Shown piece by piece: positions 4,836-28,397 of a stretch of 32,749 bases of DNA. The DNA is taken from contig CAKZTD010000438.1 of assembly GCA_937921595.1 (NCBI GenBank), forward strand, positions 1 to 32,749, written 5' to 3'. Position 1 is the first letter of the stretch; every line of letters starts with the position of its first letter. The notes under the pieces were generated by a model. It did not search any database and was not told the origin of the DNA. It worked only from the letters and a program-made list of their open reading frames with translations. The position numbers and the translations under genes were made by a program. This stretch comes from an uncultured Saprospiraceae bacterium (GTDB taxonomy: Bacteria; Bacteroidota; Bacteroidia; Chitinophagales; Saprospiraceae).

Positions 4836-4940
4836 AAATGAGTGAATTTAGAAATGAGTGAATGGCTTCCAAAATATAAAAAACAAGCTTGGGACATAGA
4901 TCTTCCCTAACTTTCAATCATTCGCTCATTTACTCATTCC
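4836..4940. repeat. AATGAGTGAA direct/inverted repeat cluster
   Basis: In the 248-bp gap between the phosphorylase and phosphoglucomutase genes, AAATGAGTGAAT occurs twice in direct order (4837-4848 and 4852-4863). A reverse-complement version built from ATCATTCG, CTCATTTA and CTCATTCC follows at 4917-4940. Together they can form an imperfect stem around a ~50-base loop. It may be a dispersed intergenic repeat, or an attenuator within the operon. Confidence 0.45.
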
Positions 4941-24507: not shown

Positions 24508-25683
24508 TTGAAAAAGATAATTCTAAAAAGAGGAAAAGACGCCTCCTTACTTCGTTTCCACCCTTGGGTTTTTTCAGGAGCAATTTATTTTAAACCAGAT
24601 GACATTGCAGATGGTGACCCTGTAGAAGTTTTTGATTCAAAAGATGAATACTTGGCTACTGGTCATTATCAAAATGGCAGCATCATGGTTCGTATTTGTT
24701 CTTTTGAAAAAACAAATCTCAAGCAAAATTTCTGGACCAAAAAAATCCAGAAAGCTTATCACCTTCGATCTCTTTTAAACCTCGCGGCAAATGGCACAAA
24801 TTGCTACCGACTCATTCATGGTGAAGGAGATGGTTTACCTGGTTTGATCATTGACATTTACAATACCACAGCCGTTATTCAATGTCATTCCATTGGTATG
24901 TTTTATGAAAAAGAAAAGATTGCACTTGCTATTCAAAAAGTTTTTAACGACGATATCAAAGCGATCTATAATAAAAGTTCTAATGCCTTACCTCCTGATT
25001 TCGGTAAGACGACAGAGAATGATTACCTGTTTGGAACTGGAGAAGATCAGGTTGTTCAAGAGTATGAAAATCAATTTGCGGTCAACTGGGTAACTGGACA
25101 AAAAACAGGTTTCTTTTTAGATCAAAGAGAAAATAGAAAACTACTTGCTCATTATGCAAAAGGAAAAAAAGTATTAAATGCTTTTTGCTATTCTGGTGGT
25201 TTTTCAATTTATGCTTTAAAAGCTGGAGCACAACTAGTCCACTCTGTTGATGTCTCTCAAAAAGCGATGGATCTTACGGATGAAAATGTTACCTTAAATC
25301 AACCCTACGAAGGTCAACACACCTCTTTCACAAGCGATGTAATGAGTTTTTTAAAAGAAACGGACACGGAGTATGACTTGATGGTCGTCGATCCTCCTGC
25401 CTTCGCTAAAAACTTAAAGAAAAGACACAATGCCGTTCAAGGATACAAACGCCTGAACACCTTGGCTATGCAGAAGATCGCAAAGAACAGTATTCTCTTT
25501 ACCTTCTCTTGTTCTCAAGTTGTTGATGAAAAATTGTTTTACAATACCATTGTCGCTGCCGCGATTGAAGCGAAAAGAAAAGTGAGTGTTTTGCATCGAC
25601 TTACTCAACCTGCGGATCATCCAGTGGGTTTGTTTCATCCTGAAGGATCTTACTTGAAGGGGCTGGTAGTTTACGTGGAGTAG
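24508..25683 (+). CDS. rlmI: 23S rRNA (cytosine-C5) methyltransferase, RlmI family
   Basis: SAM-dependent enzyme that methylates C1962 of 23S rRNA in E. coli. It has an N-terminal PUA domain (about 1-75, starting KKIILKRGKDASLLRFHPWVFSGAI-like), the family motif GFFLDQRENR (201-210), SAM-binding VLNAFCYSGGFS (222-233), DPPAF (295-299) and the SCS region with the likely catalytic Cys335. At 391 residues it is full length. The start codon is TTG (24508-24510): the frame is open further upstream but has no ATG, and this start gives the conserved N-terminus. An unusual repeat array lies between its stop and its terminator. Confidence 0.93.
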   Translation: MKKIILKRGKDASLLRFHPWVFSGAIYFKPDDIADGDPVEVFDSKDEYLATGHYQNGSIMVRICSFEKTNLKQNFWTKKIQKAYHLRSLLNLAANGTNCYRLIHGEGDGLPGLIIDIYNTTAVIQCHSIGMFYEKEKIALAIQKVFNDDIKAIYNKSSNALPPDFGKTTENDYLFGTGEDQVVQEYENQFAVNWVTGQKTGFFLDQRENRKLLAHYAKGKKVLNAFCYSGGFSIYALKAGAQLVHSVDVSQKAMDLTDENVTLNQPYEGQHTSFTSDVMSFLKETDTEYDLMVVDPPAFAKNLKKRHNAVQGYKRLNTLAMQKIAKNSILFTFSCSQVVDEKLFYNTIVAAAIEAKRKVSVLHRLTQPADHPVGLFHPEGSYLKGLVVYVE

Positions 25684-25700
25684 ACCCTCCTTCCAGTCGG

Positions 25701-25927
25701 ATAGTGCTTAGATTCGGATCGCTGCGCTCCCGAATAGGGATAGATTGCCTTCGGCAATAGGGATAGATCTCGACAAGTCGAGATAGGGATAGATTCGCTA
25801 CGCGAATAGAAAAATGCACTATGGTAACCTTTCATTCGCGAAGCGAATCTATCCCTATTCACGTAGTGTTTACTATCACTATCGACGCAGTCGATCTATC
25901 CCTATTCGCAAAGCGAATCCTATCACT
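25701..25927. repeat. Array of eight mini-hairpins with an inverted second half
   Basis: Short palindromes alternate with the 12-base spacer ATAGGGATAGAT. First half, spacers at 25734-25745, 25757-25768 and 25783-25794: hairpins at 25712-25735 (imperfect), 25744-25758 (ATTGCC-TTC-GGCAAT), 25767-25784 (ATCTCGAC-AA-GTCGAGAT) and 25793-25807 (ATTCGC-TAC-GCGAAT). Second half, spacer in reverse complement (25847-25858, 25894-25905): hairpins at 25834-25848 (ATTCGC-GAA-GCGAAT), about 25857-25870 (decayed, CAC-GTA-GTG), 25881-25895 (ATCGAC-GCA-GTCGAT) and 25904-25918 (ATTCGC-AAA-GCGAAT). The stems differ but always pair, while loops are free. The two halves face each other; 25783-25807 and 25834-25858 are reverse complements in 24 of 25 positions. 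AGTG (25703-25706) and CACT (25924-25927) bound the element. Confidence 0.92.
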
Positions 25928-25991
25928 AAAAATCAGACAAAAAAAAAGCCTTGAATCAATTGATTCAAGGCTTTTTTTTTGTCTGATTTTT
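25928..25991. terminator. Perfect 64-bp palindrome, two-way terminator
   Basis: Bases 25928-25959 and 25960-25991 are exact reverse complements with no loop: an AAAAATCAGAC outer stem, then a run of A against a run of T, then GCCTTGAATCAA in the centre. On either strand it gives a GC-containing hairpin followed by T-runs. It sits between the convergent rlmI and PorE genes and its last base touches the PorE stop codon (25992-25994). Confidence 0.9.
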
Positions 25992-28397
25992 CTAGAAAGG
26001 GCATCCTACACAAACATCCGTTCGTGGATTAGCATTAGGTTGTGATCTTTCGATATAGTCAGCATCACCAATCGTCCCTACAATTCTGAACTCCGTTCGT
26101 CTATTCAACTGGTGTTCTTCCTCGCTACAAGGAATTAAGTTTTTACAGTTATTGACATTGACTTGTTCGCCATATCCAACTGGTATTAATCGATCTCTTG
26201 AAACACCTTTATTCGTTAACCAACGAACGACCGATTCGGCACGTCTTTGAGACAATCTGGTATTATACCTGTGCGATCCACGAGAATCCGTATGTGATCC
26301 AATCTCTACAATATATTGTGGATTATCGCTTAACATAGTTAATAATTTATCCAATTCAGGTTCCGCTTCATCTCGGATAAATGATTGATTGAAATCGTAG
26401 TATATGTGAACTAGATATGTAACTGGATCACCTTCCACAGGATCACTTGGTCCTCTTACTGGAGGCTCGTCATATCCTTCTTCTCCCTCTTCTCCTTCTT
26501 TAGGAATTGTTGTGTTGTTAACAACTGGTGGCTCAACGATTGTTGCTGGATCGGGCATAATCGTCGGTTGCAAATTCAAATTCACCTGCAAAGTCATTGA
26601 CTCTGTCAAACCACGAGTGCTTTGATCTGTTGCGATAGCAGCAAGGTAATCTACTTTGGTTCCCTTGATCGTATAGGTACATTCTTCTTTTAATTTGAAA
26701 GCGAAAATACCAGTATCATCAGTCACCGCAGTCTGCTCTTCATCTTCGCAGTCATTAGTCAGGGTAAGTTCTACTCCTGCTAAAGGCAACAAGGTCAAAG
26801 CGTCAAAAGCGGCACCTTCCAAAGCAAACTCGATTGCTCGGTTTAATGGAATTTCAACTAGAACTTCCTCACCGATTGGAATGTCTTTGGTACAACCATC
26901 TTTTGCATTGTCTGTATATTCTTCTTTACTTGCTGTAAACGTACAGCAGATATTCATTTTTTGATCGACCGTTACATATCCATCCGCAGCAGTTGTCAAA
27001 GTGTCACCAGAACAACCATTGATTACCATAGCCCCTTCGATAGGCTCATTGGTGTTTTCGTCAAAGACATAAACTTTTACTGGAGATGCCATTTTTCTAA
27101 AAGAATAAATATCATCTCGCCCTACTCCACCTTCACGGTCAGAAGATAAATAACCACAAGTTCCTTCTTCATTGAATACAATTCCAAAATCATCAGAAGT
27201 GGTATTCATTGGGTATCCAAGGTTTTCAATGGTTCCCCATTCACCCTCTTCTTTCTCTTCCATATAGTACAAGTCTAATCCTCCAAGTCCGATGTGTCCA
27301 TCAGAAGCGAAGTATAAACGTTTTGCACCTCCATGATAATATGGAAATAATTCATTTCCTTCTGTGTTGATGGAAGGTCCCATATTCATAGGAGGTCCCC
27401 ATCGGCCATCACCTTTTTCAGAGTAGTACAAGTCCATTCCTCCAAAACCACCTGGCATATCAGAAGTAAAAAATAATTTTTCACCATCACCAGATAATGT
27501 CGGGTGCGCTACCGAGTATTCATCAGAGTTAAAAGGAAGGCTATTTAAATCACCAACTTTTCGATTCTCTCCGATCTCACCATAGTATACTTTTAGTTTT
27601 ACAATTCCTTCATCACTCTTTCCTACTTTTCCTTCGTTATAATTATTACGAGTAAAATAGATTGAGCTTTGATCACTTGAAAAAGTAACCGCAGCATCAT
27701 GATATTTGGAATTTAAATCTTTCGAAAATTTCTCAGGCTGGCTAAAAGTTTTCTCACCACAAGGATCATCTTTCTCTACTGGTTCTGATTTAATATAAAA
27801 CATCTCTAAGAAAGGATTTCCTGTCCATCCATGCTTACGTTTGATCGCTGTACCTTTGTCTCGTTCTGATGCGAAGACCAATCCGTCGCCATAAAGCATC
27901 GGACCAAAATCATCGACATTCGAATTGAAAGGCAAGTTTTGGATATCATAAATCCCTGCGTTTTTGGTTCTCAGTTCTTGCTCATAATCACAAGCTTTTA
28001 ATAGAAACTGTCCCCGAACATCAGCAGGATTATCTTCTACATATTTCTGATACCATTCTTTGGCAAGGTCACATTTTCCATTTCGTTGGAGCATTTGACC
28101 ATAATATAATTTATCATAGGCTTTTGACTCCGGAAGCCGAACAACCTGTCCATACCAGTATTCAGCATTTTCAGTATCGTTTACTTTCCGATAACATTCT
28201 GCAATATTCATTTTTGCATCAGAGTCATCACCTTTTTGTAATACTTCATTATAAATCTGGATAGCATCTTGGTAATTCAGCTGTTCCATATATTGTTTTG
28301 CACGTTTCATTTTCGAAAATTGTCCGAACGAAACGTTACAGGTAAATGCAGTAATTACGGCTGCGAATATCAGTTTTTTAATATTCATTTTATACAT
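25992..28397 (-). CDS. PorE-type T9SS envelope protein (TPR, beta-propeller, OmpA)
   Basis: Envelope protein with the PorE layout: TPR helices (about 28-145), PD40/WD40-like beta-propeller (about 150-435), carboxypeptidase-regulatory-like domains (about 437-520 and 525-608), an acidic Pro/Glu linker (610-655) and an OmpA peptidoglycan-binding domain (about 660-775, with GSHTDSRGSHRYN at 700-712 and NRRTEFRI at 765-772). In Porphyromonas, PorE ties the T9SS to peptidoglycan. The first Met is at 28397; Met4 (28388) begins a standard signal peptide ending near SFGQ and is a good alternative. The PorP/SprF gene lies 45 bp upstream, so they form an operon. The C-terminal tail after the OmpA domain (CVGCPF) carries two cysteines. 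Confidence 0.92.
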   Translation of the reverse strand: MYKMNIKKLIFAAVITAFTCNVSFGQFSKMKRAKQYMEQLNYQDAIQIYNEVLQKGDDSDAKMNIAECYRKVNDTENAEYWYGQVVRLPESKAYDKLYYGQMLQRNGKCDLAKEWYQKYVEDNPADVRGQFLLKACDYEQELRTKNAGIYDIQNLPFNSNVDDFGPMLYGDGLVFASERDKGTAIKRKHGWTGNPFLEMFYIKSEPVEKDDPCGEKTFSQPEKFSKDLNSKYHDAAVTFSSDQSSIYFTRNNYNEGKVGKSDEGIVKLKVYYGEIGENRKVGDLNSLPFNSDEYSVAHPTLSGDGEKLFFTSDMPGGFGGMDLYYSEKGDGRWGPPMNMGPSINTEGNELFPYYHGGAKRLYFASDGHIGLGGLDLYYMEEKEEGEWGTIENLGYPMNTTSDDFGIVFNEEGTCGYLSSDREGGVGRDDIYSFRKMASPVKVYVFDENTNEPIEGAMVINGCSGDTLTTAADGYVTVDQKMNICCTFTASKEEYTDNAKDGCTKDIPIGEEVLVEIPLNRAIEFALEGAAFDALTLLPLAGVELTLTNDCEDEEQTAVTDDTGIFAFKLKEECTYTIKGTKVDYLAAIATDQSTRGLTESMTLQVNLNLQPTIMPDPATIVEPPVVNNTTIPKEGEEGEEGYDEPPVRGPSDPVEGDPVTYLVHIYYDFNQSFIRDEAEPELDKLLTMLSDNPQYIVEIGSHTDSRGSHRYNTRLSQRRAESVVRWLTNKGVSRDRLIPVGYGEQVNVNNCKNLIPCSEEEHQLNRRTEFRIVGTIGDADYIERSQPNANPRTDVCVGCPF

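Follow-up and report, generated by a model that had tools for sequence, protein, structure and literature searches.

CRISPR arrays alternate a constant short sequence with variable ones, and a REPIN consists of two inverted hairpin groups around a core. In BIMEs, REPs stand in alternating orientation. REPs themselves are described as short palindromes with complementary stem changes and loops of 2-3 nt, located at ORF 3' ends, where TAG stops can be supplied (PMC3733652). Their families have stems of 5-13 bp, some being restricted to one species (PMC3733652; PMC2817692), and inverted REPs are said to flank RAYT genes in every case (PMC2817692). REPs gather at gene ends; it is presented as unsettled whether they act as parasites, as RNA regulators or in both capacities (PMC3733652). 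Here, we describe arrays of mini-hairpins in the genome of an uncultured Saprospiraceae bacterium and compare them with these systems.

The hairpin array in the window

In the window—the whole stretch of 32,749 nt that was analysed—an intergenic stretch between two convergent stop codons harbors eight palindromes at 25701..25927 (Table 1). The preliminary description had counted eight, and eight do lie there; one of these pairs only partly, however, and a ninth, imperfect palindrome precedes them at 25684-25700. It had further taken the spacers to be constant, which is true of five junctions (three with ATAGGGATAG forward, two with it reversed) but not of the others, namely a 26-nt non-repeat middle and a CTATCACT linker. 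The + array lies directly 3' of the methyltransferase stop, and the - array faces it from the convergent OmpA-family gene. Read from the latter gene, the inverted repeat at 25919-26000 consists of TAG, a hairpin and AGTGATAG, like a unit of the - array. Seen from the same gene, its array lies beyond this terminator-like palindrome, which begins at the stop.

Table 1 Features of the hairpin locus in the window.
Feature	Position	Strand	Remark
SAM-dependent methyltransferase with PUA-like domain	24508..25683	+	host gene of + array; stop TAG
Imperfect first hairpin	25684..25700	+	type CCTCC...GTCGG; right behind TAG stop of + gene
Bulged large hairpin	25712..25735	+	inner GC-TGC-GC (other strand: GCGCAGC)
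Linker ATAGGGATAG	25734..25743	+	its AT overlaps hairpin end
15-mer hairpin	25744..25758	+	stem ATTGCC, loop TTC
Linker ATAGGGATAG	25757..25766	+	
18-mer hairpin	25767..25784	+	stem ATCTCGAC, loop AA
Linker ATAGGGATAG	25783..25792	+	
15-mer hairpin	25793..25807	+	stem ATTCGC, loop TAC; final unit of + array
Non-repeat middle, 26 nt	25808..25833	.	separates two facing arrays
15-mer hairpin of - array	25834..25848	-	GCGAAGC on +
Reversed linker	25849..25858	-	
Imperfect (partly pairing) hairpin of - array	25857..25872	-	
Variant linker CTATCACT	25873..25880	-	
15-mer hairpin	25881..25895	-	stem ATCGAC
Reversed linker	25896..25905	-	
15-mer hairpin	25904..25918	-	stem ATTCGC
Terminator-like long inverted repeat	25919..26000	.	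41-nt arms, 90%, near-perfect; A and T runs
OmpA-family protein	25992..28397	-	host gene of - array

When the region 25684-25930 was folded as DNA, none of 200 dinucleotide shuffles folded as well (z -9.5), and the same held for RNA (0/200; z -8.9). A search of 25600-26050 against Rfam listed 38 matches, none of which reached the gathering score. We confirm that the mini-hairpin array in the window is real and exceeds what chance would give.

A genome-wide family with paired stem changes

The exact 12-base spacer ATAGGGATAGAT is present in 84 copies in the 8.04 Mb draft genome, as opposed to one copy of its reversed control, and GGGATAGAT in 220 copies (control: 15). The DNA read amounted to 724 kb, comprising 302 kb around sites (78 merged segments, the window included) and 422 kb of background; the latter was made up of 40 regions picked by contig number and contained four copies of GGGATAGAT. 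For GGGATAGAT, the sample covers the first 100 of the 220 places, minus at least two of these (C56 and C128). Genes were called with a hexamer-based caller built for this analysis. Arrays were counted if a stem was 5 bp or longer and there were at least two units or an exact linker; this yielded 85 arrays, 19 weaker ones among 104 being excluded. None of the 85 falls inside a called gene, which, together with the 84 exact spacers, bears out the earlier suggestion of a genome-wide, mostly intergenic repeat family. Past the final hairpin of some arrays (L014, L019, L021, L026 and L081), a similar ATAGTGGCGCTTCTGTTTGATAAA-like tail was observed. The window also carries a second repeat family at 4838-4935, where AATGAGTGAAT repeats stand next to a core like CCTCCAAAATGTAAAAGAAACAAGCTT; across the 724 kb read, the motif AATGAG[TC]GAAT forms 30 clusters, some of which are simple tandem repeats of GAAT.

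In a unit of the family, a tiny loop closes a stem of ~5-8 bp that is bordered by AT at both ends and can have nearly any sequence; units are joined head-to-tail via AGGGATAG (or AGTGATGAGGGATAG). As in CRISPR arrays, a constant short sequence separates variable parts; here, however, palindromes of recurring types make up the variable parts, the linkers measure 8 nt, and the arrays are small, numerous and spread over the genome.

We selected units by their flanks alone, without requiring a palindrome: GGGATAG with an intact ATAG and no more than one mismatch, or either of two variants, plus AT at both ends and AG after. Of 183 units so defined, 175 pair with at most two mismatches, and the remaining eight were excluded from the mismatch and pair tables. 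The 93 15-mers include 62 distinct sequences. At stem pair 3 we counted G-C 39, A-T 31, C-G 13 and T-A 1 times, and at pair 4 C-G 51, T-A 16, G-C 14 and A-T 8 times. Paired arms had nevertheless been maintained, as the preliminary description proposed: the Watson-Crick fraction of 15-mers was 0.914, compared to 0.519 on average and 0.608 at most in 500 arm shuffles, and it fell to 0.10-0.37 when the 3' arm was slid by 1-3 bases. Similar excesses over shuffled arms were seen for 18-mers (0.926 vs 0.637), 17-mers (0.947 vs 0.519) and 19-mers (0.798 vs 0.448), but not for the 12 13-mers, whose fraction of 0.944 equalled the shuffle maximum of 0.944. Cells changed on both sides numbered 120, as against at most 18 in any slid register. 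Stems thus change in matched pairs across the family. Within this genome, the array is neither unique to its locus nor altered in ways that break pairing, and no homologous arrays were found in the other species searched.

Neighbouring hairpins were identical in 0 of 91 cases (chance expectation: 1.17), which rules against simple tandem duplication, as had been surmised. Instead, the hairpins represent recurring types in a preferred order. TT-type 15-mers are final in 29 of 61 multi-unit arrays, compared to 12/91 elsewhere (p=5e-6); for TC-type 15-mers, the order was not significant (p=0.09).

Stop codons, orientation and the folding strand

Features beyond the preliminary description are an anchoring at stop codons, a sense bias and a strand asymmetry. 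With respect to the first, 67 of the 85 arrays start between -7 and 102 nt from a same-strand stop, while of 11952 intergenic points drawn at random from the background regions, each given a random strand, 1703 (14%) obeyed the 102-nt rule. The linker itself supplies the stop codon in 8 of these 67. Among the other 18 arrays, nine are antisense between tandem genes, five have diverging neighbours (in the array's frame) and four are one-sided, that is, lack a called neighbour on one side; some of the 18 reflect misses of the caller, as a looser ORF list gives upstream ORFs (for example, C126 13786 and C234 21229). The first helix begins at most 3 nt from the stop in 38/67 array genes vs 96/314 other genes. 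Host-gene stops (n=67) comprise 37 TAG, 18 TAA and 12 TGA, compared to 159 TAG, 251 TAA and 71 TGA in the total of 481 called genes whose stop lies in the data, and the TAG enrichment persists when the eight linker-supplied stops are removed (odds 2.3, p=0.004). With TAA or TGA at the end of 30 of the 67 host genes, a target need not be TAG. In a descriptive scan of ten host proteins, nine had Pfam matches, to unrelated functions.

Between tandem genes, 33 arrays are in sense and nine in antisense (p=2.7e-4); between convergent genes, all 30 lie closer to the gene with which they are in sense. Arrays therefore mostly begin at a stop codon and share the orientation of the gene upstream. A facing array is present within 450 nt for 14 of the 30 convergent arrays and for three of the 33 tandem sense arrays. 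At the asparaginase locus, for instance, a terminator-like palindrome is flanked by one array on each side. Given that facing arrays share one intergenic region, replication-strand bias is probably not the cause of orientation.

The hairpins are also asymmetric between strands. Loops had been thought to vary freely; this is wrong for triloops: on the sense strand, 75 of 99 distinct hairpins have TNY, which corresponds to purine-N-A on the antisense strand. TNC in sense (GNA in antisense) accounts for 60 of the 99 and GNA in sense for seven, so that the loop ends are conserved and the middle base varies. Likewise, mismatches in distinct hairpins comprise 26 C.T vs 4 G.A on the sense strand (p=6e-5), the former reading as G.A pairs on the antisense strand. 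By class, this imbalance is 14 vs 0 in 19-mers and 12 vs 4 without them (p=0.08), and it is not significant for 15-mers alone (6 vs 3, p=0.51). A tandem T.C/C.T mismatch recurs in 11 of 17 19-mers, at one site in eight and shifted one step inward in three. By nearest-neighbour energies, the antisense strand of distinct 19-mers folds better (p=0.008 as DNA, 0.004 as RNA), and the strands of 15-, 17- and 18-mers do not differ significantly. Around arrays, GCGNAGC is found 27 times on the antisense strand vs 9 times on the sense strand; DNA mini-hairpins with GNA loops on G-C stems are reported to be extraordinarily stable (PMC4686876). Together, loops and mismatches—C(GNA)G loops and tandem G.A pairs—are suggestive, if unevenly so, of folding by the antisense strand, although the asymmetry could partly stem from the copying of a few founder hairpins. 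We infer single-stranded DNA as the active form, and put at about even the chances that this is a REP-like family of single-stranded-DNA hairpins, inserted or retained directly behind stop codons.

The chief alternative is selection at mRNA 3' ends. Hairpins just past the stop would delay or halt ribosomes as they terminate, or protect the mRNA from 3' exonucleases, as has been proposed for E. coli REPs less than 16 nt from a stop. Such an RNA element is favoured by the sense bias and the anchoring at stops, and also by a lower mean RNA folding energy over the first 60 nt past the stop (-14.0 vs -8.0 kcal/mol). The E. coli REPs at this distance, reported to down-regulate translation, supply a precedent (PMC12306157). 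Both asparaginase arrays lie between a stop and the terminator-like palindrome and would hence be transcribed; the - array in the window, in contrast, is located beyond the terminator-like palindrome from its gene. Selection on the mRNA fold should make G.U exceed A.C in the sense strand, but distinct hairpins showed no such wobble excess (G.T 12 vs A.C 21, p=0.16). The TNY loops and recurrent C.T/T.C mismatches suit the opposite strand, and congeners lack the linker at the same genes. A UNCG tetraloop in the mRNA was also considered; it requires a register slid by one, where 15-mer pairing drops from 0.91 to at most 0.27, and was rejected for that reason. Selection on the mRNA explains the orientation better and the mismatch and loop pattern worse, and we regard it as possible, if on the doubtful side. 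A mixed history, in which a DNA element was later retained for an RNA effect, is possible as well.

Neutral quasipalindrome correction, in which template switching during replication of tiny-loop hairpins copies arm changes without selection, would account for the paired arm changes and the very small loops of nearly all units. We consider it improbable, as correction would erase the tandem mismatch kept in the 19-mers, and the order of hairpin types and the conservation of loop ends around a variable middle base also count against it; stop anchoring and linkers would be left unexplained. Tandem intrinsic terminators, despite the position of the hairpins at gene 3' ends, are scarcely credible: only 2 of 92 array ends have the U-run of such terminators, with at least four T in the next 8 nt, and the asparaginase locus has a separate terminator-like palindrome between its two arrays.

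Relatives, comparison with REPs and possible origin

The exact two-linker pattern was found in none of four congeners (one of them 75% complete) and in none of a further 148 genomes sampled from the order. We compared three host genes (methyltransferase, asparaginase and S41 peptidase) across the four congeners, in 12 loci of 3.9-4.3 kb each; GGGATAGAT or ATAGGGATAG occurred in 0 of the 12. Congener methyltransferases are 65-77% identical, so these array-free sites do not belong to close relatives. As judged by eye, congener G151 has kept the convergent OmpA-like neighbour of the methyltransferase, across a short gap with an inverted repeat. In G149 and G151, the asparaginase gene faces a convergent gene across a gap of ~80 nt with a plain terminator-like palindrome, from which the palindrome of the array-bearing genome differs in sequence (both by eye). 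The gaps at the congeners' S41 peptidase locus are without an array. The arrays are thus absent at the same genes in congeners.

A looser pattern, searched in genome_contigs (84,980 species), matched 48 contigs of other genomes once each; none of these matches contains an end-to-end palindrome of more than 5 bp, the fixed AT included, and we take them as chance. Plasmid and phage collections, which may omit the source genome, returned no match, and two viral contigs that fit the pattern turned out to hold an ordinary tandem repeat that forms no hairpins. When 3'-UTRs sampled from five relatives were surveyed for k-mers and hairpins, no such linker appeared among the top k-mers. Another genus of the bacterial family (L206 in G168) has mini-hairpins of its own, of the ACTTCGGAGAAGT type, 3' of the orthologous gene. 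Among the genomes searched, the mini-hairpin family was found only in this one.

The preliminary description had recognised no described element here. This needs revision, as REPs share the palindromes, stem changes, loops and 3' placement (PMC3733652); no title among the open-access matches listed describes this very family. The units are short, palindromic, extragenic and numerous per genome, as in REPs generally. REP copies share one consensus sequence; here, the linker and loop ends are common to the units and the stems are not. GTAG-REPs are likewise short, mostly intergenic palindromes with tiny loops and paired stem changes at ORF 3' ends, and the units described here are found near ORF 3' ends with possible TAG supply. 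Unlike in GTAG-REPs, there is no unpaired GTAG tag beside the stem; the tag is GATAG inside the constant AGGGATAG linker (GGGATAG/GATAG), many distinct stems of several length classes have only linker and loop rule in common, and there is a sense bias. Whereas REPs alternate in orientation within BIMEs, units here run head-to-tail, and opposite arrays form facing groups (read strand by strand).

The genome contains two Y1_Tnp genes, one of them a RAYT (NF047646, 99 bits, cut-off 80). GGGATAG is absent from either locus (3.2-3.3 kb each), and no RAYT flanked by units of the family was found in the draft genome, which, at 465 contigs and 99.2% completeness, may have a missed transposase gene. 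The RAYT gene (L061 1237-1794, -) is flanked by another palindrome type, CAAGTTT..AAACTTG, and the IS200-like transposase gene (L060 1399-1971, -) by GCCCTTTTAGGGC-type palindromes. Given the absent GTAG tag, the head-to-tail order and Y1 loci without the linker, we regard the family as REP-like and do not class it among the GTAG-REPs.

Facing arrays around a core, as in the convergent cases above, also recall REPINs. However, the core at the asparaginase locus is a terminator-like palindrome, sited where congeners have their terminator, and facing partners are rare among sense arrays between tandem genes. These two observations likewise weakened the idea of array-core-array as one mobile unit, initially favoured because 9 of 13 cores measure 61-68 nt and some cores are similar.

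As to how REP-like hairpins might reach stop codons, a putative enzyme of the Y1/HUH kind, either a nuclease or a transposase that reads hairpins on one strand, would copy units beside TAG-like tags. The first tag may be the stop codon and subsequent tags each unit's own GATAG, and with the latter as the next target, arrays would grow head-to-tail. Since recognition would depend on shape, linker and loop, and not on the sequence of the stem, stems would drift by paired change only; as insertion 3' of a stop codon would be harmless, copies would be more readily kept there. Mobile single-stranded-DNA hairpins recognised solely by their shape (linker and C(GNA)G loop, with any stem), with stop codons as their address and self-targeting head-to-tail growth, strike us as rather unlikely in this full form. 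Three points count against our preferred reading of REP-like single-stranded-DNA hairpins copied in this way: no mobilising enzyme is linked to the family, TAG-adjacent insertion alone does not predict the sense bias, and 18 of 85 arrays are not 3' of a same-strand stop. Between this genome and the congeners, direct gain or loss of a unit was not seen.

A fold kept with nearly free stems, anchoring of most sites at stop codons in one orientation and absence from the same genes in congeners all come together in one genome. DNA vs RNA shape, and insertion preference vs selection, thereby become testable within this single organism.
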